In this document: in pieces, positions 7,285 to 62,392 of the stretch | Layout: the number at the start of each line of letters is the position of its first letter | How positions within the stretch are numbered: position 1 is the first letter of the stretch | Origin: Gracilibacillus salitolerans | Lineage (GTDB): Bacteria > Bacillota > Bacilli > Bacillales > Amphibacillaceae | Reading direction: 5' to 3' | DNA length: 64,000 nucleotides | NCBI RefSeq assembly: GCF_009650095.1 | Contig: NZ_CP045915.1 | Span: 1,612,001 to 1,676,000 of the forward strand | The notes under the pieces: model-generated | Told to the model about the DNA's origin: nothing | Databases searched by the model: none | Seen by the model: only the letters and a program-made list of their open reading frames with translations | Made by a program: the position numbers and the translations under genes

Positions 7285-7285
7285 T

Positions 7286-7381
7286 TCTGATGTTGTGGCA
7301 GAGGTTACTGTCGATCAACATGAAGTAGCGTTAAAGGTATAACATTTTGAATCTGCTGATGCTAAGAATCAGGAAGTATAG
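7286..7381 (+). pseudogene. Remnant of a bacterial Ig-like (BIG_2) domain
   Basis: Reading from 7286 gives VTVDQHEVALKV, stop, then SADAKNQEV, stop, then FSSKAP in the same frame. These pieces fit, in order, the usual BIG_2 pattern (VT.. ..V.LKVG ... PADATNQEVTWSS.). They lie one frame off the GH59-GH43 gene, immediately after its stop codon, and before the terminator. The simplest reading is that the secreted enzyme, or a neighbour deleted since, once had a C-terminal Ig-like region that has decayed. The call rests on short peptide matches. Confidence 0.4.
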
Positions 7382-7390
7382 TTTAGCAGT

Positions 7391-7421
7391 AAAGCTCCTA
7401 AGGATTTTCCTTAGGAGCTTT
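7391..7421 (+). terminator. Strong intrinsic terminator after the GH59 gene
   Basis: Perfect 13-bp stem AAAGCTCCTAAGG / CCTTAGGAGCTTT with a 5-nt loop. The A and T flanks could make it work on both strands. Confidence 0.85.
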
Positions 7422-7557
7422 ATTAAGAATTATATTTAAATGAAAGAAATACAAAAAAATCGCAATAAATAAAAAAAATATTATATTCCATTTTACTATT
7501 TTGCTGCCCATAATGATAAATATAATGGCTGTAAAGGAGGGATCTTTCATTAGTAAG

Positions 7558-7571
7558 TGTAAGCGTTTTCT
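7558..7571 (+). promoter_or_regulatory. cre site upstream of the double-GH43 gene
   Basis: TGTAAGCGTTTTCT matches TGWAARCGYTWNCW at all 14 positions and lies 66 bp before the start codon, which suggests CcpA repression of the downstream secreted enzyme. Confidence 0.7.
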
Positions 7572-7636
7572 TTGAAAGTGGTGTTACAGCACTATCTTTA
7601 GAAACAATCCTAATATATAAACAATAGGAGGTAAAA

Positions 7637-10600: not shown

Positions 10601-10762
10601 CACCGATTTGCCATTCCAAATGGAAATGGATTTAACCGTGAAGTAATGATAGATAAAATGGAATTCAATGACGATGGTACAATTAAAGAAATACAACCAA
10701 CATTAGAAGGAATTACGGAACCAGTCTATTTAGATACTAACGATTCCAATCTCATCAGGTGA
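7637..10762 (+). CDS. Secreted protein with two GH43-type catalytic domains
   Basis: Secreted protein of 1041 residues; AGGAGG is well placed before the ATG. Signal peptide about 1-26. Domains in order: atrophied bacterial Ig-like (~35-131); GH43-like propeller A (~135-441), closely similar to the C-terminal domain of the preceding GH59 protein (GVRDPYIIRSPEGDKFYLI); LamG-like sandwich (~450-661); a DUF5018-like beta domain (~662-745); GH43 propeller B (~748-1035). Propeller B shows the classic triad: base D754 in YADPQ, pKa-modulating D867 in AIDPYVF, acid E913 in REGVVVF. GH43 enzymes mainly act on arabinofuranose, xylose or beta-1,3-galactan; the exact activity cannot be read here. The gene has its own terminator and cre site, so it is probably a separate transcription unit. 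Confidence 0.82.
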   Translation: MIRKRSLVVMMSFLMLYNFIVSEEVSGKEELTDKEIVEKIKDSLDIPNADNIRGNITLPTSSDEGASITWESDNPEVINVNEIVNKNYYNTPPGIVTRQKKDTSVMLIATIQYGEVTDKKEVQVTVKAKPKNKKYKAYLMTHFTGEHDIGEQIYFASSEDGLNWEDLNDGAPALTSEVGEKGVRDPYIIRSPEGDKFYLIATDLRIANGKGWGEAQTNGSKSLIIWESTDLVNWSEERMVEVAPSNAGNAWAPETVYDEETGEYVVFWASTTEDENGTFSPPDIYYAKTRDFYTFTEPEIYIDRPGDQHIIDTTIIKDEDTFYRYSADGQITIEKSKQVLGEWSKVGNLEPLGLTNDDVEGPLIFKFNDREEWNLMVDQYATGQGYLPLLTNDLSRGEFTQIGSDEYSLGSSRKRHGSVLPITKEEYRAIKDKWTNEVERPDEKEQNAPILEYTFEETTTEKVIQDQSGNDYHGALRGNATYQEDEVKESQVLYLDGTDDTFAAFPTGFFEGRDTVTISMDIKAETVSGNFFTFTIGKDNQRYMFLRTRENELRNAITVDSWSNEQEVKASTASIENTWMTVDLVITPTSMKMYKDGILLAENNDISISMSDLGTDLLAYIGKSFYSGDQYFKGAFDNVQVYNRALSEEEIQDKSLLSTGIASFELPGQFGLTKIDSVNQSIQVSFKDKDVNLTNITPSISLHTDAEISPSANEPQDFTEAVTYTVTDKDGNTSEWTVEVEVYPTATLPGLYADPQIFVYDDTFYLYPTTDGFEGWSGTQFKAFSSKDLINWEDHGVIIDLATDDVEWATGNAWAPGFAEKDGTFYHYFSANQQIGVAKSSSPTEGFEDALGEPLVARDEYSGQAIDPYVFTDDDGQSYFYWGNGSLWGAKLNDDMVSFAEEPREMTPSNFREGVVVFKRNGTYYLMWSENDTREEDYQVAYATGDSPMGPWTKHDVILSKDLSQGIKATGHHSILNIPDTDDYYIVYHRFAIPNGNGFNREVMIDKMEFNDDGTIKEIQPTLEGITEPVYLDTNDSNLIR

Positions 10763-10800
10763 TGAGGATAAAATATAATCAAAATAATATATTAACGGCT

Positions 10801-10836
10801 AAAAAGCTAGCTAAACAAACGTTTGGCTAGCTTTTT
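10801..10836 (+). terminator. Intrinsic terminator after the double-GH43 gene
   Basis: Perfect 11-bp stem AAAAAGCTAGC / GCTAGCTTTTT with a 14-nt loop, ending in a T run. Confidence 0.85.
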
Positions 10837-11021
10837 AAAATAGTAGTATATTTCGTTTTTGTAAGTGCCCACGATGGGAGAAATGTAGTGAAGTTGTAAG
10901 TATTATAAGTCACTGTGTGATTCCATTATCAACTAAGCTCTGCTCTATTCTTACTAAAAGAAACATTGTATGATAAAATCGGTTTCATAGGCAACGTTAC
11001 TTTTAGATAAGGTGAGATAAA

Positions 11022-12053
11022 ATGAAAAAAAATGTTACCATATACGATATTGCAAATGAGGCTGGCGTGTCGCCTTCCACTGTCTCAAGAGTACTCACTG
11101 GCAAGGAACGAGTAAAACCAGATACGAAGAGCAAAGTATTATCAGTGATTGAAAAATACAACTTTCGACCTAACAGCTTAGCTAGAAGTTTGTTATATAA
11201 GCAATCGAAAATGATCGGAATTGTATTACCCGATATTAATCATCCGTTCTTTTCTACTTTAGTGTTAAAAAGTGAGGCACATGCATTATCATTAGGATAT
11301 ACATCATTTCTGTGTAATTCAATGGACGACCATCAGATCGAATCCAAATACTTACAGAACTTAGTTGATAAACAAGTAGATGGTATTATTTTTCTAGGTG
11401 GTCGTATTAATCAAGTTGAGACTAGCAAAGAACTAGCAGAAGAAATGAATAAAATAAGGGAACGTGTACCGGTTGTGTTTGTCAATGGAGAAATGGAGGG
11501 CGTGGATGCCCACATCGTACAGACAGATGAACACGATGGAATAACAAAAGTAATCGACTTGCTTAAAAATTTTAATCATCAAAAAATTGCATTTCTCGGT
11601 GGGGAAATGGGTATTAGTTCACGAGAAGTGAAATTAAGAGCATATACAGAGGCAATGGAAAAAAATCACCTATCAATCAATCCAAATTGGGTTATGGATG
11701 AAGGATTTGATATTGAATCAGGTGAAGAACTGGCTAACAGACTACTTTATCAAAGTGAGCGTCCGACAGCGATTGTTTGTGTCAATGACTTTGTTGCCAT
11801 CGGAGTGATCAAAACGTTAGATAAATTTGGGCTAAGGGTTCCTGAAGATATATCTGTTGTTGGTTTTGATGATATTTATTTAGCAAAGGATTATCCTCCG
11901 GGAATAACATCTGTCAGTCAAAATTATGAAGTATTAGGGCGAACAGCTGTCGATGTTCTTGTAAAATTAATTAATGGAGAAGAGGCTGAAAAACAAGTAA
12001 TCGTTCCAACAAAATTAATGTTAAGAAACTCATGTCAATTGTTGAAAAAATAA
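11022..12053 (+). CDS. LacI/GalR-family transcriptional repressor
   Basis: Full-length LacI-family regulator (343 residues). The N-terminal helix-turn-helix reads TIYDIANEAGVSPSTVSRVL, followed by the hinge and a periplasmic-binding-protein-like sugar-sensing domain with the usual FDDIYLAKDYPPGITSV segment near residues 285-300. Start at the ATG after AAGGTGAG. It sits between the two secreted hydrolases and the GH35 gene; two near-identical palindromes in the gap before GH35 are the best candidates for its operators. The likely role is sugar-responsive control of the galactosidase, and perhaps of the whole locus; the effector is unknown. Confidence 0.92.
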   Translation: MKKNVTIYDIANEAGVSPSTVSRVLTGKERVKPDTKSKVLSVIEKYNFRPNSLARSLLYKQSKMIGIVLPDINHPFFSTLVLKSEAHALSLGYTSFLCNSMDDHQIESKYLQNLVDKQVDGIIFLGGRINQVETSKELAEEMNKIRERVPVVFVNGEMEGVDAHIVQTDEHDGITKVIDLLKNFNHQKIAFLGGEMGISSREVKLRAYTEAMEKNHLSINPNWVMDEGFDIESGEELANRLLYQSERPTAIVCVNDFVAIGVIKTLDKFGLRVPEDISVVGFDDIYLAKDYPPGITSVSQNYEVLGRTAVDVLVKLINGEEAEKQVIVPTKLMLRNSCQLLKK

Positions 12054-12092
12054 TGAAGTTGACAAAAGGGAAAACATATCTTACCATTGTTT

Positions 12093-12108
12093 TTGAAAAG
12101 GTTTTCAA
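12093..12108. promoter_or_regulatory. Palindromic operator-like site before the GH35 gene
   Basis: TTGAAAAGGTTTTCAA is a 16-bp inverted repeat with 7-bp perfect arms, between the LacI gene and the GH35 gene. Its form suits a LacI-family operator. Confidence 0.45.
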
Positions 12109-12122
12109 GTATTTTAATCATT

Positions 12123-12140
12123 TATGAAACCCATTTCGTA
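12123..12140. promoter_or_regulatory. Putative LacI-family operator, copy 1
   Basis: TATGAAACCCATTTCGTA, 17 of 18 bases identical to the copy at 12215-12232. Each is an inverted repeat TATGAAA-N4-TTTCATA (one mismatch in this copy). Confidence 0.6.
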
Positions 12141-12214
12141 TTTACCTTTCCTATTATCAATATTACTATAATAGGAAGCTTGTTTTACTAGTACTTACGA
12201 TAAGTGAAGATGAT

Positions 12215-12232
12215 TATGAAACCCATTTCATA
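12215..12232. promoter_or_regulatory. Putative LacI-family operator, copy 2
   Basis: TATGAAACCCATTTCATA, perfect 7-bp arms, 42 bp before the GH35 start codon. The 92-bp distance to copy 1 (about nine helical turns) would suit DNA looping by a tetrameric repressor. Confidence 0.6.
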
Positions 12233-12273
12233 AATTTATTTCTTGAAAAAATATATAATTAGGGGGATATAAA

Positions 12274-13995
12274 ATGTTAACTACAAAAGAGGGACAGTTT
12301 TATCTGGATAATAAAGCCTTTCAAATATTATCAGGGGGCATTCATTATTTTCGAGTAGTACCAGAGTATTGGGAAGACCGATTACAAAAGTTAAAAGCTT
12401 TAGGTTTAAATACAGTCGAAACATATATACCATGGAATCTGCATGAACCGAAAAAGGGTACCTTTGATTTTTCTGGCTTGGCAGACATAGAAAAATTTAT
12501 TGAACTAGCTGATCAATTGAATTTATACGTTATTTTAAGACCAGCGCCATATATTTGTGCCGAATGGGAAATGGGAGGCTTACCTTCGTGGTTATTAAAG
12601 GATAAAGATACCGTGTTAAGAAGCAGTCATCCTGTTTATTTACAACATGTTGAAGAGTATTATAATGTATTGCTGCCAAAATTCAAAAAGTATTTATACC
12701 AGAACGGCGGACCTGTAATTGCGATGCAAATCGAAAATGAATATGGTGCATATGGAAATGATCTGAACTATTTAGAGTTTATTAAGAAACAATACGAAAA
12801 ACATGATCTGGATACGTTTTTATTTACCTCTGATGGACCGGAATTCATTGAACAGGGTTCCTTACCGGATGTTACCACAACACTTAATTTCGGTTCTAAG
12901 GTGGAAAGTGCTTTTGCGAAACTAGATAACTATAAACCAAACTCACCAAAAATGGTTGCAGAGTTTTGGATCGGTTGGTTTGACTATTGGTCAGGAGAAC
13001 ACCACACAAGAGATGCACAGGACGCAGCAGATGTCTTTCGAGAATTAATGGAAAGAAATAGTTCTGTTAACTTCTATATGTTTCATGGAGGAACTAATTT
13101 TGGGTTTATGAATGGTGCCAACCATTATGACATCTATTATCCTACGATTACCAGCTATGATTACGATAGTCTATTAACAGAGAATGGAGAGATCACGGAG
13201 AAGTATACCAAGGTAAAAGAAGTTCTAACTGATTACATCGATGTTCCTGATGATTATGTAAGTAAAATAGAAACCAAGAATTATGGAGAAGTAAAATTAC
13301 AAGAATCAGTAAGTGTATTTGACACGCTTTCTTCGATTGGTCGTAAAGTGGAACATGTTGCACCTTTGAAAATGGAAGAAATCGATCAAACATATGGTTA
13401 TATTTTATATAAAACAACGATAAACAGACAAGGTGAATTAGCGTTCAATGTGGATGCGATTCAAGACCGGGCATTTATCTATATAAATGGTGTTTATGTA
13501 GATACAGTGTATAAAAATGATAAGCAAATGGAAAAAACACTGCATTTTCCGCATAAAGAAAATGTATTGGAAATATTCGTTGAAAACATGGGACGGGCTA
13601 ATTATGGTGAACATTTAAGTGATACAAAAGGTCTCATTAAGAACTTGTGGCTGGGTAATCAATATTGGTTTGATTGGGAAATGTATGCCATCGAACTAGA
13701 TTCACTGCCTACTGATTATACAGGAAACGATACTAGATTTCCGCAATTCTTCCGAGGGAATCTAAAGGTAGAAGAGCAGGCAGATACGTTTGTCGATCTG
13801 GAGGGATTTACGAAAGGGAATGTTTTTGTTAATGGATTTAACCTAGGTAGATATTGGAATGCTGTTGGGCCTCAACGAACATTGTATTTACCAGGGCCAT
13901 TATTAAATAAAGGTGATAACGAAATAATTATTTTGGAACTGGAACATACTGTATCCAATTCAATTCAGTTATCGAGTGAACCTAAGTTATCTTAG
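12274..13995 (+). CDS. GH35 beta-galactosidase, cytoplasmic
   Basis: Protein of 573 residues, the normal length for short bacterial GH35 enzymes, with no signal peptide. The TIM-barrel N-terminal domain opens with GGIHYFRVVPEYWEDRL and PWNLHEP; the acid/base candidate is E156 in QIENEYGAYG and the nucleophile candidate is E230 in VAEFWIGWFDYW. Two jelly-roll domains fill the C-terminal half. It should remove terminal beta-linked galactose from oligosaccharides brought in by the ABC importer encoded downstream. The start ATG has AGGGGG before it. Expression is probably controlled through the palindromes at 12123-12232. Confidence 0.93.
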   Translation: MLTTKEGQFYLDNKAFQILSGGIHYFRVVPEYWEDRLQKLKALGLNTVETYIPWNLHEPKKGTFDFSGLADIEKFIELADQLNLYVILRPAPYICAEWEMGGLPSWLLKDKDTVLRSSHPVYLQHVEEYYNVLLPKFKKYLYQNGGPVIAMQIENEYGAYGNDLNYLEFIKKQYEKHDLDTFLFTSDGPEFIEQGSLPDVTTTLNFGSKVESAFAKLDNYKPNSPKMVAEFWIGWFDYWSGEHHTRDAQDAADVFRELMERNSSVNFYMFHGGTNFGFMNGANHYDIYYPTITSYDYDSLLTENGEITEKYTKVKEVLTDYIDVPDDYVSKIETKNYGEVKLQESVSVFDTLSSIGRKVEHVAPLKMEEIDQTYGYILYKTTINRQGELAFNVDAIQDRAFIYINGVYVDTVYKNDKQMEKTLHFPHKENVLEIFVENMGRANYGEHLSDTKGLIKNLWLGNQYWFDWEMYAIELDSLPTDYTGNDTRFPQFFRGNLKVEEQADTFVDLEGFTKGNVFVNGFNLGRYWNAVGPQRTLYLPGPLLNKGDNEIIILELEHTVSNSIQLSSEPKLS

Positions 13996-24598: not shown

Positions 24599-24680
24599 CA
24601 GTCGATAGTAAATATGCTGAAGTTGCCAGTAAAACTCCGTAAGTAGCCAGTAAAATCGAAAAGTTGCCAGTAATGCCGCA
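24599..24680 (+). repeat. Short tandem repeat, about 20-21 bp units
   Basis: Four imperfect units built on AGTTGCCAGTAAAA followed by a variable part ending in CCG, starting right after the stop of the broken DUF2264 gene. A second array with the same plan (AAGTTGATAGNAAA...) occurs at 55059-55160, again directly after a stop codon. Confidence 0.6.
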
Positions 24681-30563: not shown

Positions 30564-31694
30564 TTATCTATCTTCCTTCATTGCTTGAATCAATGTCATA
30601 ATTTGCATCGTTTGTTCCTTTAAAAGTGTGGAAGTATTATCCATGCACTCTTCCAGACTTAATGGCTGGTTAACAATCGAAAAACAGCCTGCAAAGTGTT
30701 TTCTTAATTTTGCAGTATTTCCACCTAAACTACCCGATAATAAAATAGTTGGTTTGTTAAATTTTTTTGCTAATTCTGCCACAAAGCCGGGTGCTTTTCC
30801 ATATAAGGTTTGTTCATCACTTTGCCCCTCGCCAGTAAGAATAAGATCTGCTACTTCTATACTTTGCTCGAGACTAATGGCTTCAGCAATTAAAGAGGCC
30901 CCAGACTCCAATTTTGCACCCAGTGATAGGAAAGCAAACCCCAGACCACCTGCAGCCCCGGCGCCGGGAGTATGTTGCCAGTTGTTATCTAGTTGTGTTT
31001 CCAACAGGTTAGCAAAATGGTGTAAAGCTTTATCATATAAATGAATTTGCGCTGGAGTTGCTCCTTTCTGTGGACCGTATACGGCACTTGCTCCCAGTTC
31101 CCCACATAATGGGTTATCGACATCACAGGCAATTCGGAATTTTACATCTTGTAAGCGAGGGTCCAAATCGTCGAGCTGAACAGCGTCGATATGTAATAGG
31201 TCATTACCGAATTTATCTAACGGATTACCATTTTTATCAAATACGTGTAGGCCAAGTGCTTGCAATAATCCTAAACCACCATCGTTCGTAGCGCTACCAC
31301 CAAGACCAATAATAATTTGCTGACAACCTCTATCCAAGGCATCGAGAATAGCTTGTCCCATTCCATAAGTTGTGGTCAAATCCGGATTTCGCTTGTCATC
31401 TGGGACTTGATACAAGCCAGCATGCATGGCTGTTTCAATGACTGCAGTAGTCTGATTAATAATGGCATAACTTGTTTCTATCGATTCACCTAATGGACCG
31501 AGTGTAGAAATTTGAACTTGTTTCCCCGAAGTAGCAGATAATATCGCTTCGATCGTACCTTCACCACCATCTGCCATTGGTTTTGTGATAACTTCATGAT
31601 CACCGCTTTCTTGGATTGCTGTCTTTATCGTATGTGCCACTTCCGTAGCGGACAGACTTCCTTTATAAGAATCAGGTGCAACAACAATTTTCAT
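30564..31694 (-). CDS. glxK: Glycerate kinase
   Basis: Protein of 376 residues of the GlxK/GarK glycerate-2-kinase family, which phosphorylates D-glycerate with ATP. Family marks include the start KIVVAPDSYKGSLSATEVA, PMADGGEGT (about 40-48), LIIGLGGSATNDGG-like (here IIIGLGGSATNDGG, about 125-138) and LTGEGQSDEQTLYGKAP near 287-303. A GGAGG precedes the ATG. It could feed glycerate, for example from aldonate or uronate breakdown, into glycolysis. It is probably co-transcribed with the PRPP synthetase paralogue downstream. Confidence 0.93.
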   Translation of the reverse strand: MKIVVAPDSYKGSLSATEVAHTIKTAIQESGDHEVITKPMADGGEGTIEAILSATSGKQVQISTLGPLGESIETSYAIINQTTAVIETAMHAGLYQVPDDKRNPDLTTTYGMGQAILDALDRGCQQIIIGLGGSATNDGGLGLLQALGLHVFDKNGNPLDKFGNDLLHIDAVQLDDLDPRLQDVKFRIACDVDNPLCGELGASAVYGPQKGATPAQIHLYDKALHHFANLLETQLDNNWQHTPGAGAAGGLGFAFLSLGAKLESGASLIAEAISLEQSIEVADLILTGEGQSDEQTLYGKAPGFVAELAKKFNKPTILLSGSLGGNTAKLRKHFAGCFSIVNQPLSLEECMDNTSTLLKEQTMQIMTLIQAMKEDR

Positions 31695-48975: not shown

Positions 48976-51345
48976 TTAGTTTATTGGCTCGATTATAACA
49001 TTATCGATATAAAATGAATCTTCAGGCTTGGAAGTTTCTACATACAATTTTATGGAAGAAATATCCTGACTGATCATATAGTTTCCTGTTAATGGGAACC
49101 ATTCACTGTTATTGGTTTCTACCTCTTCAAGTGGTAAATAAGTTGTGCCTCCTAAATCGGTTATTTCAAGCATGAATTTCACCGTACTCGGAGTTTTAAG
49201 TGCATCAACGAAACGGAAATAGGCAGAGAATTCGTATTCTTCTCCTTTCACAACCATATCTGTAATATCAATAGAAGGTCCGTGCCAGGAGGAAGTCCGA
49301 TTAGTTGTTTTTAAACTAAATTCACCAGATTGCTTCTCTTTTTGTGTAGCTTCTAATATTTCTGATCCTCCTCTACCTTTCCAGCCATTCGTTGTGCCAT
49401 CTTCATAATCAAACAAATGCTTTTCCAGTTCGATAGGCTCGTCAATTCCATCATTGAAAGTAAACTTATCTACAGCAAAAAGCTTTTTCCTGCTATCTCC
49501 TTTAAATACAAGGTACATGTCATGGAAACCAAACGCACCATCAGACGGATTTGTATCAATCATGGTCGAAAAGGTTTCCCATTCATTAGAGTTATCATTT
49601 GAAACAGATATTTCTCCTACGACCGGCCCGGCTACTGGATCATCAAGTCGAATTTCAATCGATCCCCCGTCTATTGACTTCACAGTAGCATCCATTGATA
49701 AAATGTGTTCCATTCCAGGTTGTCCATTAGCTGTACCATCTGCAAAATTAACATTTTCATACTTGATATAGTCGCCGTTCCTCACATGTTTAATGTATGT
49801 TTTTTCCTTGCTTTTAGGAATACCTTTCGATTGCCCGTCATTTTCTTCTGCCTCATAACTTGAAAATACATCCTTCATATCCTCAAATGCTGGTAATTCA
49901 TGTTCCTTTGGAATAAATGTTGTTACACTATTACTTTTTAAATTTATCGTAACAGCTTTTCCGTTATTCGTAACCTTCACATCGTCTAATTTTTTTAAAT
50001 TTTCGTTACCAGATGTTCGATATGGAACAAGTTCTTTTATTTTTTCGGGGAATTGATCCAGTTTTAAAGTGATTTCTTGTTTTGTATCCTTATTATTAGT
50101 AGCAACGATACTAAAATTATTTGTTTCCGGATCTTTATACGCGGTAATCTGTACACCTTCAACAGGAGATTTGTCTGATCCGATCATCATATACCCAGGA
50201 CGAATAAAGCGGCTGTAGTTACCAAGTGCATAATACCTCTTAAAAACTCTAAACATTCCATTTACTTCCTCGTCTTCATCTGTGGTCAAACGTATTAAAT
50301 CAGAACCATCTGCACCGTTAACAGCAGCAGGCCACCACCAGAAGTATGCACTAATCCCAGTTACATCAAACATATCTCCAATCAAATTAGCATGACGAAG
50401 TCCATCTCTTATCGTATTGAATTCATAAGATTGTTTGGCTTCCCCTTGGTTCATATATTCAGTCTGCCAAATCGTTTTACCTTTTTCTGTGGATACCGGA
50501 AATTCTGGTACATCTGTTCCAATACCATACGCGTGTGAAGCAACGACATCAATATAATCCGCCGTAACAGGATCATTTAATGCTGGAAGTGCATACTCTT
50601 CAGTAAAATGCATATGTTCAGGCATTACAATTTTAGCTGGAACATTCCTTTCTTCGAAGGTTGGGCCAAGATAATCTCGAATAAATATATTCATTTCCTC
50701 TGGCGTCCAAACGGCTCCAGAATAACTTGGACCATAATGTGGTTCGTTTGCAATCGAAATATAAGATATATCAAGGTCAAAATGTTCTTTATAGCCTAGT
50801 ACATACTCAGCTAGATAATCGGCGAAATCTTGATAATTTTCTCGTTTTAATTTGCCTTCTCCCGTACCGTTTACACTATCGTTTGTCTTCATCCAGGCAG
50901 GAGGACTCCAAACAGAACTAAAAAATGTAGTAACTCCTCGTTTTTCTGCCTCTCTCATAAACCAAATTTGATCTTTGTCAAAATCATCTTTGGCTGATTC
51001 CCAATCCGGCTCATCCCATACAAATTTCCCAGGCTCAGGTTGGATTGTTGAAGCAGCTTCACCATCTCCAACTAAGTTACGTACCATGGATAACCCAATG
51101 CCTTTCTCTTGAGAAAAAATCATGTCTAAAATTTTCGTTCTTTGGGGTTCTGGAAGTTCCATAATATATGATGGTTTCTGAAAAGCTCCTGATCCGCCAA
51201 ATCCGTCTATATGCTGTCGATTTTCATCCCATTCAATAACACTAGTTGGTGAATTAGCTTTTATTTTCGGTACCCAAAGATTAGTTGAGATTAAGCTAAT
51301 TGTTAATACTAAAATGATAAACAGATAAAGCCTTTTTCTACTCAT
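48976..51345 (-). CDS. Secreted GH30 xylanase-like enzyme with two binding modules
   Basis: 789 residues with a signal peptide (about 1-30). The GH30 barrel plus side beta domain (~35-470) opens with HIDGFGGSGAF; acid/base candidate E201 in SIANEPHYG and nucleophile candidate E296 in IWQTEYMNQ. Then a CBM6-like module (~480-640, from SYEAEENDGQSKG) and a CBM22/CBM4_9-like module (~650-789, from FDYEDGTTNGW). This layout suits a glucuronoxylan- or xylan-attacking endo-enzyme, though GH30 also includes galactanases and fucosidases. The ATG at 51345 (AAGGATG upstream) is preferred over 51387, which would run through a perfect cre site. A divergent AraC gene is its likely regulator. Confidence 0.88.
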   Translation of the reverse strand: MSRKRLYLFIILVLTISLISTNLWVPKIKANSPTSVIEWDENRQHIDGFGGSGAFQKPSYIMELPEPQRTKILDMIFSQEKGIGLSMVRNLVGDGEAASTIQPEPGKFVWDEPDWESAKDDFDKDQIWFMREAEKRGVTTFFSSVWSPPAWMKTNDSVNGTGEGKLKRENYQDFADYLAEYVLGYKEHFDLDISYISIANEPHYGPSYSGAVWTPEEMNIFIRDYLGPTFEERNVPAKIVMPEHMHFTEEYALPALNDPVTADYIDVVASHAYGIGTDVPEFPVSTEKGKTIWQTEYMNQGEAKQSYEFNTIRDGLRHANLIGDMFDVTGISAYFWWWPAAVNGADGSDLIRLTTDEDEEVNGMFRVFKRYYALGNYSRFIRPGYMMIGSDKSPVEGVQITAYKDPETNNFSIVATNNKDTKQEITLKLDQFPEKIKELVPYRTSGNENLKKLDDVKVTNNGKAVTINLKSNSVTTFIPKEHELPAFEDMKDVFSSYEAEENDGQSKGIPKSKEKTYIKHVRNGDYIKYENVNFADGTANGQPGMEHILSMDATVKSIDGGSIEIRLDDPVAGPVVGEISVSNDNSNEWETFSTMIDTNPSDGAFGFHDMYLVFKGDSRKKLFAVDKFTFNDGIDEPIELEKHLFDYEDGTTNGWKGRGGSEILEATQKEKQSGEFSLKTTNRTSSWHGPSIDITDMVVKGEEYEFSAYFRFVDALKTPSTVKFMLEITDLGGTTYLPLEEVETNNSEWFPLTGNYMISQDISSIKLYVETSKPEDSFYIDNVIIEPIN

Positions 51346-51372
51346 AATAGACACATCCTTATTATTATTTTT

Positions 51373-51386
51373 AGATAGCGCTTTCA
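51373..51386 (-). promoter_or_regulatory. cre site upstream of the GH30 gene
   Basis: On the minus strand TGAAAGCGCTATCT matches TGWAARCGYTWNCW at all 14 positions, 28 bp before the GH30 start, so catabolite repression is expected. Confidence 0.7.
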
Positions 51387-51620
51387 AAATATGTGCTTAA
51401 AATACCTCCTTTCAGGTTAACTCCCATAATGATATCCTAGTTATTCTAGTATGGTAATGTACGTATATATTATTATCATCAAAATAATTAAAAATCAAGC
51501 CTTAGTGAAAAGAAAACACGCACAGCAAATTTTGAAATGAAATTTGCCACTACTAGTTATTTTCCTCCGGTTTATAATACAATAAAATAAAACTAACAAA
51601 GATTAGGAGTGAGAATAATA

Positions 51621-52903: not shown

Positions 52904-54085
52904 TTAAAACTTTACTATCTTTCCCGGTTTGCTCCATTCGACACCTAAATCATTTGGCAGGCAAAACTGTTGATAGCATTGTTTTAATGTTTCATCTAAT
53001 CCTTGAACAGTAGTTAGTTTTCTTTCTTCATCATAAGCAATCCAATGTTTCGGGAATTTTGGAATGTCCTTCACAGACTGGTGGATTCCGAAAATTGCAT
53101 TCACGTGTGCACTTGCAGCTTCAGGCCCGCATAAAATGCTTTGCTTTTCATTACGTACTGCTTCGATCATTACATCCAATTTTACACTATGAATATTTTC
53201 GGGATCTTCGTAGACTTTTTCGCGACCATCATGCCATTTCGCTACGATATCACCGCGCTCGCCTTCAGGATGATAAGTAATCGTCGCATCTTCGAACTCT
53301 AATGTATATTTAGGTCGATGTTCATCTGCAATCGCATGTGAAGCGAGATAAACGATTTCAACATCATTCTTTGTGTGGAGATGAATGGCACACGTATCAA
53401 ATGTCTCTATTGGATTTGCACGGTATAATTCAGCTGAAATTTGATCAATTTCTGCACTTGTTTCAATCGAATCACCGGATAAATAGAGAAGATGATGCAG
53501 GAAGTGAGCAGTTGCGTTATTGGCTACACTATCAAAAATCATTTCTCCATCTGGACTATATTTTTTTCCAGCCCATCCAGTCCGGTTGAAGTAATCAGCG
53601 TTTCTCGGCCACAGAACAAGACTTTTCATTCTGAAGGGACGACCGAATTCTCCAGCTAAAATATCTTGTTTTAATGACTGAATAGAATCAGTGAATGACC
53701 AGTTAAAGCCAATTGCTAATTTTTTCTTCGTACGATCTCTTGTTTCAATCATTTGCTGCAGATGCTCTCGATTAGCTGTTGCCGGTTTTTCACACAGTAC
53801 ATGACTGCCTTTTTCCATTGCAAGACATGCTTGTTCTTTATGTAAATGAATAGGTGTGGAAATTATGGCAAGATCAGCTTGATTCTCTTGGTAGAATTGG
53901 TCCATTGAATCATAGATTGGTATATTTTTATCTTTGAATTCCTGATAAAACTTAGACCTTTCAGGTGCAATATCGACCACACCTTTAACGAATACGCTTT
54001 CATGGTTTCCGTGGAAAAGGTTTTTTGTATATACGTTACCATAACCACCAATACCAACTAATAAAACGGAAATCTGGTTAACCAT
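52904..54085 (-). CDS. Gfo/Idh/MocA-family sugar dehydrogenase
   Basis: 393 residues. Rossmann nucleotide-binding start VLLVGIGGYGNVYTKN and the catalytic-lysine motif HVLCEKPATANREH (about 91-104) mark a Gfo/Idh/MocA NAD(P)-dependent oxidoreductase; the C-terminal alpha/beta domain is complete. Such enzymes oxidise or reduce sugars, inositols or glycosides, often at C3. GAGGAG lies before the ATG. It is divergent from the AraC gene at 54228 and may be regulated by it. Confidence 0.88.
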   Translation of the reverse strand: MVNQISVLLVGIGGYGNVYTKNLFHGNHESVFVKGVVDIAPERSKFYQEFKDKNIPIYDSMDQFYQENQADLAIISTPIHLHKEQACLAMEKGSHVLCEKPATANREHLQQMIETRDRTKKKLAIGFNWSFTDSIQSLKQDILAGEFGRPFRMKSLVLWPRNADYFNRTGWAGKKYSPDGEMIFDSVANNATAHFLHHLLYLSGDSIETSAEIDQISAELYRANPIETFDTCAIHLHTKNDVEIVYLASHAIADEHRPKYTLEFEDATITYHPEGERGDIVAKWHDGREKVYEDPENIHSVKLDVMIEAVRNEKQSILCGPEAASAHVNAIFGIHQSVKDIPKFPKHWIAYDEERKLTTVQGLDETLKQCYQQFCLPNDLGVEWSKPGKIVKF

Positions 54086-54227
54086 AGAAAAATCTCCTCG
54101 CTTTTTTGCTATTTTTTAAATGGATACTATATAATAGCAATATATCATAACTTCCTGATTTTCGCAGTAGAAGAATATGGATTGCTGGAAAATTAAACAA
54201 AAAAATCTGAAAAATGGAGGAAGTTCC

Positions 54228-55058
54228 ATGCTAAAAGATATTCGAATCGAACCATTCGGTATACAACTATATGAAAGTAAGCATCACGCAGGTGACCGTA
54301 TCGAAGAGCATCATCATCAAGTCTATCAACTACTTTATGCACTTGAAGGGACAGGTAAAATCATCTTAGATGGTAAAGAATATCTTCTTGAACAGGATCA
54401 TCTAACATTTATTACACCTTTGACACCACATGCGATTATCTCAGATCATAAGCTAACTGTCTTAGTGCTTGCCTTTGACAGACGAATTAAAGATGGAACG
54501 AACACAGATTTATTTGAGAAAACATTATATGAATCTAAATTTATCAGCTTAAACCCTTTTAATAGCAGTGAAATCCGTCAATTGTTGCGTACAATGCTTT
54601 ATGAACAAGCTCATTCCAGCCTTCATCAGGAAACGGCATTACGAACCTATTTATCACAGCTCCTCCTTTTAATTGCACGTGGCGAGAAAAACAATGACAA
54701 AGTCGATGCGAATACGTTGAGAGCAGAACGGTTAAAAGAGTATATTGATTCTCACTATTTTGACTGGATCCATGCAGAAGACTTGGCCACAAGATTGGGA
54801 ATTAGCACGAGACATATGAATACTATCTTCAAAGAAACCTACTCTATGACACCGATTCAATATTTAACAGAAGTGCGAGTAGGTCTGGCGAAGAAAATAT
54901 TAGCAGAAACCGATAAAGATATTGCTTCGATCTGTTTTGAAGTTGGATTTGAGTCAATCTCCACTTTTTACCGAGCCTTTAAAAATAGTACGGAGATTTC
55001 TCCTAATAAATATCGGACTAAACAACAGCATATTGATCAATTGCCGGAAAAAGAGTGA
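54228..55058 (+). CDS. AraC-family regulator of the dehydrogenase-DUF993 locus
   Basis: 276 residues: an N-terminal cupin-like domain with EEHHHQVYQLLYALEGTG (about 23-40) and a C-terminal AraC double helix-turn-helix (IHAEDLATRLGISTRHMNTI and IASICFEVGFESISTFYR). The ATG at 54228 follows TGGAGG; a start at 54177 is less likely. It sits between a leftward and a rightward sugar dehydrogenase gene and is the natural candidate for controlling both. A tandem repeat follows its stop codon. Confidence 0.88.
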   Translation: MLKDIRIEPFGIQLYESKHHAGDRIEEHHHQVYQLLYALEGTGKIILDGKEYLLEQDHLTFITPLTPHAIISDHKLTVLVLAFDRRIKDGTNTDLFEKTLYESKFISLNPFNSSEIRQLLRTMLYEQAHSSLHQETALRTYLSQLLLLIARGEKNNDKVDANTLRAERLKEYIDSHYFDWIHAEDLATRLGISTRHMNTIFKETYSMTPIQYLTEVRVGLAKKILAETDKDIASICFEVGFESISTFYRAFKNSTEISPNKYRTKQQHIDQLPEKE

Positions 55059-55160
55059 CATTGATAGAGGACTTGCCGAAGTTGATTGTAAATCGCAAAA
55101 GTTGATAGAAAAGTCACCGAAGTTGATAGTAAACCACCAAAAGTTGATAGAAAACAGATA
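55059..55160 (+). repeat. 21-bp tandem repeat after the AraC gene
   Basis: Four to five imperfect 21-bp units of the form AAGTTGATAGAAAANNNCCG, beginning directly after the stop codon. The plan is the same as at 24599-24680. In one frame the units read KLIENSP-like peptides, but no start or ribosome site supports translation. Confidence 0.6.
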
Positions 55161-55283
55161 CCCCGAACCAGGTCATTCCAAATTCATTTCCGATTTTAAG
55201 AAATTCGTTCTTAGATTAATAAGACGAATTTTTTTTATTACGCTAAACTAAAGGGAATTAAGCAAATGAAAGGGGAAAAGATA

Positions 55284-56435
55284 ATGGCAGAACATAAAAT
55301 AGGTATTATTATGAATGGGGTAACAGGAAGAATGGGAACGAACCAACACTTAATTCGTTCTATTAAAGCAATCAGAGAACAAGGTGGCGTTTTGTTAAAG
55401 AATGATGATAAATTAATGCCAGATCCTATTTTAATAGGTCGTAACGAAAAGAAACTGAAAGCGTTAGCAGATGCGCATGGCATTGAGCGTTATTCAACAG
55501 ACTTAGAGGAGGCGCTTGCTGACGATTATAATGAAATCTATTTTGACTCACAAACAACAGTAAGGCGTGCTGACAGCATTAAACAAGCGATAGCTGCTGG
55601 TAAACATATCTATTGCGAAAAGCCAACTGCTACTAATCTGGAAGGATCTGTTGAACTAGCAAAACTGGCAAGAGAAGCAGGGGTAAAAAATGGCGTAGTG
55701 CAGGACAAATTATTCTTGCCAGGTCTACTAAAGTTGAAGCGACTTATCGATTCCGGTTTCTTCGGACAAATGCTATCAGTAAGAATGGAATTTGGATATT
55801 GGGTATTTGAAGGGGACTGGCAAGAAGGGCAGCGTCCATCCTGGAACTATCGTAAAGAAGACGGTGGGGGGATTATAGTTGATATGTTTGCTCACTGGCG
55901 TTATGTAATTGACAACCTTTTTGGCAATGTGAAATCAGTGTCATGCCTTGGTGCTACTCATATTCCAGAGCGTGTCGATGAAAATGGTGAAACATACAAA
56001 GCAACTGCAGATGATGCAGCATATGGAACGTTTGAGCTAGATAATGGAGTCATTGTGCAGGCGAATTCTTCCTGGGCAGTGCGTGTGAACCGTGATGATT
56101 TATTAACGATTCAAGTCGATGGTACTGAAGGTAGTGCAGTTGCCGGTCTTCGTGATTGTAAAGTACAGCATCGTGTGAATACACCAAAGCCAACGTGGAA
56201 TCCGGATATAGAAAACCCATTTGATTTCCAAGCACAATGGCAGGAAGTACCGACAAATGATGTGTTTGACAATGGTTTCAAAGTGCAATGGGAGTTATTC
56301 TTAAAGCATGTGTTTGCGGATGAAGAGTTTCCTTGGGATTTACTTGAAGGAGCGAAAGGAACGCAGCTTTCTGACCTTGGTTTACAATCATGGGAAGAGA
56401 GACGCTGGGTAGAGGTACCAGACATCAAATTGTAA
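55284..56435 (+). CDS. Gfo/Idh/MocA-family dehydrogenase, first gene of the DUF993 operon
   Basis: 383 residues. The start GIIMNGVTGRMGTNQHLIRS is an unusual, phosphate-loop-like variant of the Rossmann motif; the catalytic lysine lies in IYCEKPTATNLEGS and a later conserved stretch is GGGIIVDMFAHWRYV, which carries the family's Asp/His pair. The ATG at 55284 follows AAAGGGG. It should carry out an NAD(P)-linked redox step on a sugar or sugar acid. 12 bp separate it from the DUF993 gene, so they are co-transcribed. Confidence 0.85.
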   Translation: MAEHKIGIIMNGVTGRMGTNQHLIRSIKAIREQGGVLLKNDDKLMPDPILIGRNEKKLKALADAHGIERYSTDLEEALADDYNEIYFDSQTTVRRADSIKQAIAAGKHIYCEKPTATNLEGSVELAKLAREAGVKNGVVQDKLFLPGLLKLKRLIDSGFFGQMLSVRMEFGYWVFEGDWQEGQRPSWNYRKEDGGGIIVDMFAHWRYVIDNLFGNVKSVSCLGATHIPERVDENGETYKATADDAAYGTFELDNGVIVQANSSWAVRVNRDDLLTIQVDGTEGSAVAGLRDCKVQHRVNTPKPTWNPDIENPFDFQAQWQEVPTNDVFDNGFKVQWELFLKHVFADEEFPWDLLEGAKGTQLSDLGLQSWEERRWVEVPDIKL

Positions 56436-56447
56436 GGAGGTACAAAA

Positions 56448-57626
56448 ATGACTAAGCTAATTTTACCGAATAAGGATCGAAAACTATATACTTATCAAGC
56501 TAGTAATTATACACCTTTTGACATTCCAAAGGATAAACCTTTTGAACAAAGGACTGCATTCTCGGCTGCCCATGTGGTAGCCGATCCATTAGCGGACGCT
56601 GATCCAACGCTTAATTCTCAAATAGATTGGGATAAAACAATGGAATATCGCCATTATTTATGGTCACTTGGATTATCAGTAGCGGAAGCAATGGATACTG
56701 CACAACGTGGAATGGGGTTAAGTTGGGAAGGTGCGAAGGAATTAATTTCGCGCTCCACTAAGGAAGCCAAATCTGTTGGAGGAAATATTGCAAGCGGGGT
56801 TGGAACAGATCATCTGGATCCATCTCCTTCTGTTACATTGGAAGAAGTGGAGAGAGCATATGAAGAGCAAGTTTCTTTTGTCGAAGCAGAGGGTGGGAAA
56901 ATTATATTAATGGCAAGTCGAGCGCTTGCTGCTTGTGCAAAAGGACCTGAAGATTACCAACGTGTCTATAATAAAATTTTACAAAATGTTTCCCAGCCGG
57001 TTATATTGCACTGGTTAGGCGATATGTTCGATCCGGCACTAAAAGGATATTGGGGACACGAAGATTTAGATGAAGCGATGGACGTTTGCCTGCAAATCAT
57101 TCGTGACAATGAATCAAAAGTAGATGGAATTAAAATCTCCCTTTTAGATGACCAAAAAGAAATCGGGATGCGCCGTCTCTTACCAGACAGTGTAAGAATG
57201 TATACTGGCGATGATTTTAACTATCCAGCGTTAATCAAGGGAGATGAGCAAGGATACAGTCATGCCTTGTTAGGAATCTTTGATGCGATTGCTCCAGCGG
57301 CAGCAGCTGCTATGCATGCTTTAGATGCAGGAGATTTGGCAACATATGATCAATTATTAGAAAAAACAGTACCATTGTCTCGTCATATTTTCCAGACACC
57401 AACTTTTTCTTATAAAACAGGTGTTGTCTTTATGGCATACCTTAATGGACACCAGGACCATTTTCGCATGATCGGTGGCAAAGAAAGTGCGCGTTCGATT
57501 GTTCATTTGTCTGATTTATTCGTGATGGCAGATGAGGCAGGCTTGTTACGAAATCCAGAAATAGCTACAGAAAGAATGCGTCTAGCATTAGAATTAGCTG
57601 GCGTTAAGCAGGAGGGTACATCATGA
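56448..57626 (+). CDS. DUF993 protein, aldolase-like (DHDPS superfamily)
   Basis: 392 residues of the DUF993 family, related to dihydrodipicolinate synthase-type class I aldolases. K229 in VDGIKISLLD is placed like the Schiff-base lysine of that superfamily, and SRALAACAKGPEDY and GNIASGVGTDHLDP are conserved-looking loops. The reaction is not established; retro-aldol cleavage of a keto sugar acid is a reasonable inference. AAGGAGG precedes the ATG. Its last four bases overlap the start of the next gene (ATGA), so the two products are made together. Confidence 0.8.
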   Translation: MTKLILPNKDRKLYTYQASNYTPFDIPKDKPFEQRTAFSAAHVVADPLADADPTLNSQIDWDKTMEYRHYLWSLGLSVAEAMDTAQRGMGLSWEGAKELISRSTKEAKSVGGNIASGVGTDHLDPSPSVTLEEVERAYEEQVSFVEAEGGKIILMASRALAACAKGPEDYQRVYNKILQNVSQPVILHWLGDMFDPALKGYWGHEDLDEAMDVCLQIIRDNESKVDGIKISLLDDQKEIGMRRLLPDSVRMYTGDDFNYPALIKGDEQGYSHALLGIFDAIAPAAAAAMHALDAGDLATYDQLLEKTVPLSRHIFQTPTFSYKTGVVFMAYLNGHQDHFRMIGGKESARSIVHLSDLFVMADEAGLLRNPEIATERMRLALELAGVKQEGTS

Positions 57627-58444
57627 CAGGTGAGAAATTAATGGGCCGTCTCAGTTTGAATCAAATCACAACGGAACAATGGAATCTTCAGGAAGCGGTA
57701 GAAGGTTGTGTACGTCATGATGTACCTTGGATCTCGGTTTGGCGTCATAAAATCGAGGAAATCGGTTTGAAAAAATCGAAGCAACTGATCAAAGATGCTG
57801 GTTTACAAGTGTCCAGTGTCTGTCGTGGTGGTATGTTTCCGGCTGCTACTGCAAAAGAAAGAGCAGAAAGAATTGATGACAATAAACGAGCAGTAGAAGA
57901 AGCAGCAGAATTAGGTACGGATACATTAGTATTAGTTTGTGGACCAAGTGCCGATAAAGATATTGATACGGCAAGAGAACAAGTTGCAGAGGGGATTGAC
58001 ACATTAGTCCCTTTTGCCAAAGATTATGGCGTGAAACTTGCTATTGAACCATTGCATCCAATGTTTGCCGCAGATAGATCCGTTATTAACACGATGAACC
58101 AAGCAACTACTATCGCTGAAAAATATCATCCAAGTGAAGTAGGTGTCATTGTTGATGTCTATCATGTTTGGTGGGATCCAAATCTTTATGTGGAGATCGA
58201 GAGGGCAAAAGACAGAATTTTAGGATTTCATGTGTCTGATTGGAAAGTGCCTATGGATGATATGTTTAAAGGCCGTTTTATGATGGGAGACGGTGTAATC
58301 GAAATCAACAGAATGAGAAAAGCAGTAGAAAAAGCAGGTTATCACGGTCCAATAGAGGTAGAAATCATTAATCAATCATTATGGGATCGTGACGGGAATG
58401 ACGTATTGCAAGAGGTCAAACAAAGCTTTGCAAAACATGTATAA
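57623..58444 (+). CDS. Sugar phosphate isomerase/epimerase-family TIM barrel
   Basis: 273 residues of the AP endonuclease 2-like TIM-barrel family. The four metal ligands can be followed: E in LAIEPLHP, D in VIVDVYHVWWDP, H in GFHVSDWKVP and E in IEVEIINQS. Members are isomerases, epimerases, dehydratases or, in several recently described pathways, lyases or hydratases of 3-keto-glycosides. AGGAGGGT precedes the ATG, which overlaps the DUF993 stop. A hairpin follows before the GH43-like gene. Confidence 0.87.
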   Translation: MTGEKLMGRLSLNQITTEQWNLQEAVEGCVRHDVPWISVWRHKIEEIGLKKSKQLIKDAGLQVSSVCRGGMFPAATAKERAERIDDNKRAVEEAAELGTDTLVLVCGPSADKDIDTAREQVAEGIDTLVPFAKDYGVKLAIEPLHPMFAADRSVINTMNQATTIAEKYHPSEVGVIVDVYHVWWDPNLYVEIERAKDRILGFHVSDWKVPMDDMFKGRFMMGDGVIEINRMRKAVEKAGYHGPIEVEIINQSLWDRDGNDVLQEVKQSFAKHV

Positions 58445-58463
58445 AAGCGGATAAGGATGGGGC

Positions 58464-58496
58464 GAAGGAGTGTATCTTTTAGAGGTACACTCCTTC
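58464..58496 (+). terminator. Hairpin between the isomerase and GH43-like genes
   Basis: Perfect 11-bp stem GAAGGAGTGTA / TACACTCCTTC with an 11-nt loop, but only a weak T tail; it may only partly reduce read-through. Confidence 0.55.
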
Positions 58497-58525
58497 ATTG
58501 TAAAATGAAACGGAGGGTGCAGTAG

Positions 58526-59452
58526 ATGAATTCGAAAAAAGTTACAGCACCATTATTTAGAGACCCGATTTATGATGGTGCTGCCGACCCGACTGTGATT
58601 TGGAATCATGTGGAAAAAGAATGGTGGATGGTCTATATGAACCGAAGAGCAACAAGCCGGCGAATGGATGTATCCTGGGTTCATGGGACAGATTTAGGCA
58701 TCGCAACTTCAAAGGAGGGCAATCAATGGCTATATTGCGGAATTATCGAAGATTTAGACATCGAAAAAGGGCGCAATACATTTTGGGCACCTGAAATTAT
58801 TTATCATGAGGGCATTTATCATATGTATGTTAGCTATATTAAAGGTGTACCAGATAGTTGGTCTGGTCATAAACGACATATATTACACTATACAAGTGAT
58901 AATTTGTGGAATTGGATCTACCAAAGCACATTGTCATTAAGTTCTGGGTATGTGATTGATGCAGCTGTACACAAGTTGCCGAATGGAAAATGGCGAATGT
59001 GGTATAAAGATGAGCAGAATCATAGCCACACATATGCCGCTGATAGTGATGATTTATATCATTGGGAATCAGTAGGTCCGGTGATTATCGGATTCCCGCA
59101 CGAAGGAGCTAATGTGTTTTTTTGGCAGGAACAATATTGGTTAATTATTGATGAATGGAGTGGACAAGGCGTATATCAATCAAAAGATTGCGTGAATTGG
59201 CAGAGGAACAGTAAAATTTTAGATAAAGATGGGATTCGAAAAGATGATCAAGGAGTTGGTCTCCACGCGGATGTATTAGTCGTTAATGATAAAGCATATA
59301 TTTTTTATTTTACGCATCCTGACCGTGCGAAAGGTTACGGAAAGGATTCTTATTTATCGAAACGTTCCTCGATCCAGGTAGCTGAATTAGAGATCGAAAA
59401 TGGCATACTTACCTGTCACCGGGATAAAAACCTAATATTACATTTGTCCTAA
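58526..59452 (+). CDS. GH43-like five-bladed propeller glycosidase, cytoplasmic
   Basis: 308 residues without a signal peptide. The layout fits a GH43-type (clan F/GH32-like) propeller: the base candidate Asp in GAADPTVIW (about 20-28), a middle Asp in YVIDAAVHKLPNG, and an acid candidate Glu in FPHEGANVF. Several WAPEIIYHEGIYHMY-type blade motifs repeat. Because it is intracellular and follows the dehydrogenase-DUF993-isomerase genes, it may free the sugar that they process. GGAGGG precedes the ATG. Confidence 0.78.
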   Translation: MNSKKVTAPLFRDPIYDGAADPTVIWNHVEKEWWMVYMNRRATSRRMDVSWVHGTDLGIATSKEGNQWLYCGIIEDLDIEKGRNTFWAPEIIYHEGIYHMYVSYIKGVPDSWSGHKRHILHYTSDNLWNWIYQSTLSLSSGYVIDAAVHKLPNGKWRMWYKDEQNHSHTYAADSDDLYHWESVGPVIIGFPHEGANVFFWQEQYWLIIDEWSGQGVYQSKDCVNWQRNSKILDKDGIRKDDQGVGLHADVLVVNDKAYIFYFTHPDRAKGYGKDSYLSKRSSIQVAELEIENGILTCHRDKNLILHLS

Positions 59453-61305: not shown

Positions 61306-61821
61306 ATGTTTTTAGAATTATTAAGGACTAATCGTTATGTCGCAGGTTTTCTAGCAATTATTCGAATTTATTTAGGGTACCATTGGATCACATCTGGTTG
61401 GGGTAAAATAACAGGAGGTTTTGATGCTTCTGGTTATCTACAAGGAGCAGTTGCTAAAGCGGGTGGTGACCATCCAGCGGTACAAGGTTGGTGGGCAGCA
61501 TTTCTCGAAAATGTGGCAATACCGGGAGCAAATGTCTTTAGTTTTCTAGTAATGTGGGGAGAGTTCTTAGTAGGGATAGCACTTATTCTAGGAATCTTCA
61601 CAAACTTTGCAGCATTGATGGGAATTGTAATGAACTTTGCTTTTGTATTCAGTGGAACAGTAAGCAGTAACCCGCAAATGATTTTATTAACAGCATTTTT
61701 GTTAGCAGCAGGTTTTAATGCAGGCAGATTTGGTTTAGATCGTTTTGTGATTCCGTTTATTCGTCGGGTGATAGAGAAAAGAAGAGGTCAAATGAAACAA
61801 GTGACAGCAGAAATACATTAA
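61306..61821 (+). CDS. DoxX-family membrane protein, copy 1
   Basis: 171 residues with four membrane helices and the DoxX pattern GYHWITSGWGKI (about 25-36) and GRFGLDRFVIPF near the C-terminus. DoxX-family proteins are linked to quinone or thiol redox in membranes, but the role in Bacillaceae is poorly defined. AAAAGGAGTG precedes the ATG. The next gene is a close paralogue 52 bp downstream, so a tandem duplication formed a two-gene operon. Confidence 0.85.
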   Translation: MFLELLRTNRYVAGFLAIIRIYLGYHWITSGWGKITGGFDASGYLQGAVAKAGGDHPAVQGWWAAFLENVAIPGANVFSFLVMWGEFLVGIALILGIFTNFAALMGIVMNFAFVFSGTVSSNPQMILLTAFLLAAGFNAGRFGLDRFVIPFIRRVIEKRRGQMKQVTAEIH

Positions 61822-61873
61822 CTTATAGTAAATTATGTGAAATACTGAACAAAAATAAAAGGAGCGGATGGAA

Positions 61874-62392
61874 ATGTTTGTATACTTATTAAGAAATAAT
61901 AAAGTAGTAGCAGGAATATTAGCTTTTATCAGAGTCTATTTAGGGTATCAATGGATGACAGCTGGTTGGGGTAAGATCACTGGTGGGGAATTTGATGCTG
62001 GTGGATTTTTACAAGGAGCTGTTGCAAATGCAAGTGGTGAGAATCCAACTGTTCAAGGCTGGTGGGCGGCATTTTTAGAAGCAGTTGCAATTCCTGGAGC
62101 CGATGTCTTTACATTCCTCGTAATGTGGGGAGAATTGCTAGTTGGTATCGCGCTTATCCTGGGTGTATTTACTAACTTTGCAGCATTAATGGGAATCATC
62201 ATGAACTTCGCATTCTTATTCAGTGGAACAATCAGCACAAATGGTCAAATGATTTTACTCACATTATTCTTACTTGTAGCAGGTTATAACGCAGGCAGAT
62301 TTGGATTAGACAGATATGTGATTCCATTCCTCAAAGAAAAAGTAACACACAAAAATGAAGAACGATTTGTAAAACAAGCAGAAGCACACTAA
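61874..62392 (+). CDS. DoxX-family membrane protein, copy 2
   Basis: 172 residues, by eye about three quarters identical to copy 1 over the whole length (GYQWMTAGWGKI, GRFGLDRYVIPF). The ATG at 61874 is chosen over 61868 because it gives the same nine-base spacing to AAGGAG as in copy 1. The ends differ most: the C-terminal tail here is KEKVTHKNEERFVKQAEAH. Followed by a terminator. Confidence 0.85.
   Translation: MFVYLLRNNKVVAGILAFIRVYLGYQWMTAGWGKITGGEFDAGGFLQGAVANASGENPTVQGWWAAFLEAVAIPGADVFTFLVMWGELLVGIALILGVFTNFAALMGIIMNFAFLFSGTISTNGQMILLTLFLLVAGYNAGRFGLDRYVIPFLKEKVTHKNEERFVKQAEAH

Follow-up and report, generated by a model that had tools for sequence, protein, structure and literature searches.

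A conserved three-gene cassette with a DUF993 protein in Gracilibacillus salitolerans and a possible kinase-free route with carbon-carbon cleavage

What is the task of a compact gene unit in which a DUF993 protein is encoded between a relative of sugar dehydrogenases and a relative of TIM-barrel isomerases? The question arises from a stretch of 64,000 nucleotides of the Gracilibacillus salitolerans genome (GCF_009650095.1, contig NZ_CP045915.1, positions 1,612,001 to 1,676,000), here called the window, in whose numbering all positions are given. An earlier note on this DNA had read four genes as a catabolic operon for an unusual sugar or glycoside. We find that three of them, here named Gfo1, DUF993 and AP, form a conserved set. 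We suggest that they constitute a kinase-free catabolic module in which Gfo1 oxidizes the substrate, AP isomerizes it and DUF993 cleaves it in a retro-aldol reaction which releases a C3 fragment. In our judgement, the chances of this complete reading come close to even.

The four open reading frames are confirmed on the + strand at 55284-56435, 56448-57626, 57623-58444 and 58526-59452 and are spaced by 12, -4 and 81 bp; the listing of open reading frames agrees with the positions, strands and gap sizes first given for them. The first frame is the in-frame part of a longer listed frame starting at 55266. Inspected by eye, the start sites are plausible, with AAGGGG preceding the ATG at 55284 and AGGAGG the ATG at 57623. 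A start of the third gene at 57641 was discarded because the better Shine-Dalgarno sequence belongs to 57623. According to Pfam, core gene 1 codes for a Gfo/Idh/MocA dehydrogenase (Gfo1), core gene 2 for the DUF993 protein and core gene 3 for a xylose-isomerase-like TIM barrel of the AP_endonuc_2 family (AP), as had been proposed. The label GH43-like for the fourth gene could not be upheld, as this gene encodes a member of family GH159. The AraC-family gene said to adjoin the unit is indeed found upstream of Gfo1 at 54177-55058 (+ strand, Pfam match) and is probably the regulator of the unit.

Gfo1, DUF993 and AP are firmly established as a conserved module. Together with the upstream AraC gene they are present in all 19 loci from relatives (15 of the same genus, two of the same family, one of the same order and one of the same class), which supports the idea of a dedicated kinase-free unit. 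The neighbourhood expected to recur across genomes is thus borne out for the three genes and not for the fourth. DUF993 matches occur in 15 of the 16 other genomes of the genus, and the closest proteins among the matches listed are from Gracilibacillus (up to 94% identity). Beyond the genus the spread is patchy: among the genomes sampled, DUF993 was found in 4 of 398 from Bacillota (the own genome counted, two of these hits being weak), 36 of 398 from Pseudomonadota and 24 of 296 from Actinomycetota (the last two counts include the centre genomes). After removal of two centre genomes, one contig-end fragment and one weak hit, a set of 56 sampled loci was obtained (35 of the 36 from Pseudomonadota and 21 of the 24 from Actinomycetota). 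In 38 of these 56 loci DUF993 has both Gfo1 and AP on its strand at a distance of no more than 1 kb; these are all 21 from Actinomycetota and 17 of the 35 from Pseudomonadota. The same arrangement is seen in 68 of 80 named loci, which are the best 80 of 580 and biased to the kind of the window and which include Chloroflexota, Acidobacteriota and Gemmatimonadota, and in 5 of 15 plasmid loci hand-picked partly for being different. Altogether, adjacent genes for the three enzymes occur in six bacterial phyla or more.

Pairwise distances of Gfo1, DUF993 and AP correlate with r 0.88-0.90 over the 119 loci which have all three (at most 0.112 in 500 shuffles), with shared species history contributing to this value. 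We further calculated a tree of 114 DUF993 proteins from half of the named loci and the other sets, leaving out rows with stops or below 340 residues. The tree was built by a quick method with a midpoint root, and 45 of its 111 inner branches are open. Cassette-bearing rows appear on both sides of the root. The rows lacking Gfo1, a few of them only due to a contig end, form one large branch whose labelled rows are Pseudomonadota except L060. This locus lies on a contig titled Frankia sp. RB7, its DUF993 is placed inside Bradyrhizobium, and the assembly is possibly mislabelled or mixed.

What kind of enzyme is DUF993? The protein belongs to PF06187 over model positions 2-382 of 382 (623 bits, 2e-187, cut-off 24) and is without any NCBIfam match. 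Its structure model has the (beta/alpha)8-barrel fold of the dihydrodipicolinate synthase/N-acetylneuraminate lyase (DHDPS/NAL) superfamily of class I aldolases, as judged by Foldseek matches against the PDB; this ranking re-orders Foldseek's own matches and speaks for the families among them. K229 (codon at 57132-57134, + strand, position checked) is found on strand beta-6 of the model (residues 225-231), where the Schiff-base lysine of the superfamily is located. It aligns colinearly with the DHDPS lysine stretch in profile alignments and is invariant in all 154 DUF993 sequences. Strand position and conservation support the proposal that K229 is a Schiff-base-like lysine, imine formation itself being predicted, and in the model the position speaks against burial away from the barrel mouth. 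DUF993 is not a DHDPS proper. Compared with DapA, YagE (treated in the accessible part of PMC11778176) and their kin it is about 100 residues longer, and the GTTGE loop and the catalytic tyrosine of these enzymes are replaced by DTAQR and His188 in an alignment which is weak by score. D83, T84, Q86, R87 and H188 are each found in all 154 sequences. From the sequences and the model, DUF993 is likely a Schiff-base lyase.

The DHDPS/NAL fold also includes dehydratases, for example 5-dehydro-4-deoxyglucarate dehydratase. DUF993 could therefore be a Schiff-base dehydratase, and the module would oxidize, isomerize and dehydrate a sugar acid whose carbon chain stays intact. The loss of the pyruvate-type GTTGE loop in favour of DTAQR speaks against this, and we regard it as unlikely.

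The two partner enzymes are clear members of their families. Gfo1 contains the GFO_IDH_MocA domains, resembles an ortholog of PDB entry 3oqb (1e-168) and keeps K113, D200 and H204 in 122 of 122 sequences. AP matches PF01261 with 5e-39, has the structural relatives 7vpf, 3qc0 and 3ju2 and retains E142, D178, E245 and E247 in 132 of 132 sequences, H203 being replaced by glutamine in 20. It is by sequence a probable metal-dependent isomerase or epimerase. Catalytic residues are thus kept in all three core enzymes, which supports a catabolic module.

Their substrate is less evident. The top NCBIfam model for Gfo1 is levoglucosan dehydrogenase, and the two superfamilies, Gfo/Idh dehydrogenases and PF01261 enzymes, also make up the levoglucosan pathway (LgdA, LgdB1, LgdB2, LgdC), where PF01261 lyases operate and which likewise has no initial kinase step (PMC10066097, as far as its text was available). 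Oxidative cleavage of a glycoside by way of a 3-keto intermediate and beta-elimination, in the style of levoglucosan or C-glycoside breakdown, would fit these similarities and the GH159 gene adjoining the cassette. However, Gfo1 scores only 61.9 bits against the levoglucosan dehydrogenase cut-off of 650, so that membership in the levoglucosan pathway, which had been brought up for these genes, is rejected. Its similarity to DgpA is weak (2e-8). Further, the window's cassette adds DUF993, to which the described pathways give no role in the parts of the sources available, and the GH159 gene is a passenger (see below). We consider such a glycoside route improbable.

A second set of similarities leads to cyclitols. 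Outside its own group, AP matches IolI best among named proteins (2e-20), and among the NCBIfam models for Gfo1 inositol dehydrogenase ranks second. Gfo1 could oxidize a cyclitol or cyclohexane-type polyol, AP could isomerize it like IolI and DUF993 could open the ring by a retro-aldol reaction. In L025 a shikimate-dehydrogenase-like protein occupies the Gfo1 slot directly before DUF993. Derived types of the locus carry short-chain dehydrogenase/reductase, acyl-CoA dehydrogenase, electron-transfer flavoprotein, CoA-transferase and enoyl-CoA hydratase genes in place of Gfo1, and CoA-transferase, crotonase and acyl-CoA dehydrogenase genes beside several of these types also speak for a cyclitol. 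Yet the links stay at the family level and no equivalog cut-off is reached: AP falls short of IolO, L-ribulose-5-phosphate 3-epimerase, hydroxypyruvate isomerase, 2-oxo-tetronate isomerase and QuiC, its best score among characterized PF01261 models being 52.5 bits for IolO against a cut-off of 300. The transporter types, too, differ among the loci. We therefore give cyclitol breakdown a small chance.

The fourth gene (58526-59452, + strand) passes Pfam Glyco_hydro_43 narrowly (34.1 bits, cut-off 32.2). Among solved structures it matches the furanosidase Ch_Gaf159A (7zei) over nearly its full length with 364 bits and 6e-108, and it is assigned to GH159 by this full-length similarity and the catalytic triad D21, D145 and E193. 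These residues align with D19, D142 and E190 of Ch_Gaf159A, whose alanine variants are inactive according to the accessible part of PMC9278983. The window's protein, a predicted furanosidase, adjoins the cassette in only some Gracilibacillus. Among the 15 genus relatives, the gene is found in full length in two (L139, L140) and in pieces in two (L133, L135), and it was not found in 11. The 81 bp gap contains a terminator-like hairpin at 58464-58496 (+ strand) with a 15 bp stem, a minimum free energy of -25.1 kcal/mol, a z of -4.3 and a T-poor tail (4 T in 8). A stem of 11-19 bp within 100 bases 3' of AP is present in 14 of the 15 genus relatives (raw count). Because a hairpin follows AP and GH159 is rarely kept, we take the operon proper to end probably after AP. 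The four-gene operon is rejected, and the GH159 gene is a lineage-restricted passenger on which the glycoside idea mainly depends.

A hint at the reaction products comes from the gene neighbourhood. A glycerate kinase gene (PF02595) lies within 6 kb of DUF993 in 6 of the 21 Actinomycetota loci (0.08 expected from the 32 such genes in those genomes), and a MOFRL glycerate kinase lies within 2.5 kb in 5 of the 35 Pseudomonadota loci (0.04 expected; 37 matches there). Glycerate kinase also adjoins the cassette in L144, the relative from the window's order, and is found in 9 of the 15 plasmid loci. Homologues of the window's own PF02595 kinase (30564-31694, - strand, 1e-138) adjoin DUF993 in 12 other loci. 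Because glycerate kinase recurs beside DUF993, we suggest that a C3 acid or aldehyde is among the products, and cleavage to C3 matches this recurrence better than a dehydration. A 2-hydroxyacid dehydrogenase gene is near 5 of the 80 named and 3 of the 56 sampled loci. Dihydroxyacetone kinase was rejected as a product enzyme. Each of the 15 Gracilibacillus relatives has dhaK or dhaL close to the unit, and since outside the genus only L121 has a dhaK match (170 loci scanned), these genes are assigned to the neighbouring glycerol genes.

Other neighbours would suit the dehydratase. A divergent protein of the enolase superfamily precedes Gfo1 in many alphaproteobacterial loci, and a DHDPS-family protein neighbours the cassette in L062. 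The enolase superfamily includes acid-sugar dehydratases. The divergent protein reaches 30.7 bits for MR_MLE_C (cut-off 29.4) in L054, stays below the cut-off in L092 and L063, and for L092 no match among solved structures was found. It has about 475 residues (L092:9004-10431, L063:7283-8671, L054:7378-8775), with 25 members in a first clustering of 89 loci. The L062 protein (5651-6727, PF00701, 33.3 bits) is a second DHDPS-family protein of its locus; a protein of this kind directly precedes Gfo1 in some of the alphaproteobacterial loci (7 members).

We suggest that the preferred retro-aldol route proceeds in the following steps. The substrate would be a small polyhydroxylated molecule, be it a sugar, a sugar acid or a cyclitol, in which Gfo1 oxidizes a single hydroxyl to the ketone with NAD(P). 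AP could then move or invert the ketone or a hydroxyl. DUF993 would form a Schiff base via K229 and break a carbon-carbon bond by retro-aldol cleavage. The C3 fragment, possibly hydroxypyruvate, glyceraldehyde or similar, might enter central metabolism through glycerate and glycerate kinase. Gfo2, a second Gfo/Idh dehydrogenase described below, could carry out a second redox step, and AraC would probably control the unit. The analysis shows the gene unit, the enzyme families, the fold, the place of the lysine and the conservation, whereas we infer this order of steps, a lyase rather than a dehydratase and the C3 product. From the earlier account, the non-phosphorylating route with carbon-carbon cleavage survives; the four-gene reading and the levoglucosan membership do not.

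Several observations weigh against this proposal. Neither partner is found within 1 kb of DUF993 in 17 of the 56 sampled loci, and one more has only AP. No glycerate kinase is present in 45 of the 56 sampled, 77 of the 80 named and 18 of the 19 relative loci as fetched, and the nearest one seen in the window is 23.6 kb away from Gfo1. The 11 linked cases represent about four plus two lineages when grouped by eye on the tree. Moreover, the profile comparison of DUF993 with DHDPS by itself scores weakly (E 0.068 and 0.0094), and dehydratases share the fold.

The module might instead serve biosynthesis or detoxification, as the window's operon is without a transporter. However, the patchy spread, the AraC, LacI and TetR regulators and the uptake systems beside the cassette elsewhere are typical of catabolism. 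These systems vary and comprise carboxylate-type TctABC and TRAP, NMT1-type ABC, MFS and SBP_bac_1-type ABC transporters. A biosynthetic or detoxifying unit is thus very improbable.

Gfo2, absent from the earlier account, is encoded divergently at 52904-54085 (- strand, Pfam). It is kept in all 15 genus relatives and in L142, lies 3' of AP in L143 and, with only 24% identity, in L145, and is missing in L144. The matches to DUF993 and Gfo2 are broken into several pieces in G001/L127, a member of the genus. When the AraC-Gfo1 spacers were compared by eye, a candidate operator/promoter block upstream of Gfo1 (55187-55245, + strand) appeared to be conserved in the genus. In the same spacer (55061-55165), and again at 24620-24674, a unit of about 21 bp built around AAGTTG(AT/CC)AG(T/A)AAA is repeated in tandem; the pattern has 27 exact matches in the own genome and one for the reversed control, and in the spacer its sequence and copy number vary among strains. 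Elsewhere in the window, 2338-13995 and 48976-51387 are rich in glycoside hydrolases (GH59 with an aBig_2 domain, GH43, GH35, a GH30/GH59-like enzyme with carbohydrate-binding modules), which by sequence suggests galactan or arabinogalactan use. At 61306-62392 two similar tandem proteins of 171 and 174 residues are encoded, the first of which matches DoxX.

All three core enzymes have relatives of solved structure: 3oqb for Gfo1, 4dnh for DUF993 and 7vpf, 3qc0 and 3ju2 for AP. Two of these structures are Sinorhizobium meliloti proteins, SMc04130 (3ju2) and SMc04132 (4dnh), close relatives of AP and DUF993 with locus tags close together. SMc04133, a putative oxidoreductase by its name in the accessible part of a table, may be the Gfo1 counterpart; it is listed together with SMc04132 among PhaR-affected genes (PMC12542648). 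SMc04134 is named as a regulator only in what was available of PMC11387232. No reported function of SMc04130, SMc04132 or SMc04133 was met in the literature consulted, part of which was available in excerpts. The literature searched, which lacked most subscription journals and bioRxiv preprints, contains no mention of DUF993, PF06187 or IPR009334 and no function for the three solved-structure families. 7VPF, 3OQB and 3QC0 are not mentioned there, 3JU2 only in unrelated papers and 4DNH once in a lizard-gut paper; the structures may be discussed elsewhere.

We tentatively propose, at clearly less than even confidence, that DUF993 represents a new class I lyase branch within the DHDPS fold with an invariant DTxQR/His site instead of GTTGE/Tyr. 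Together with Gfo1 and AP it would form a widespread non-phosphorylating route, undescribed in the literature searched, which splits a polyhydroxylated compound to hydroxypyruvate or glycerate. With our findings, the name "dihydrodipicolinate synthase family protein", which DUF993 commonly bears, could be corrected, and the shared cassette, the probable chemistry and the product hint make this family amenable to direct assays.

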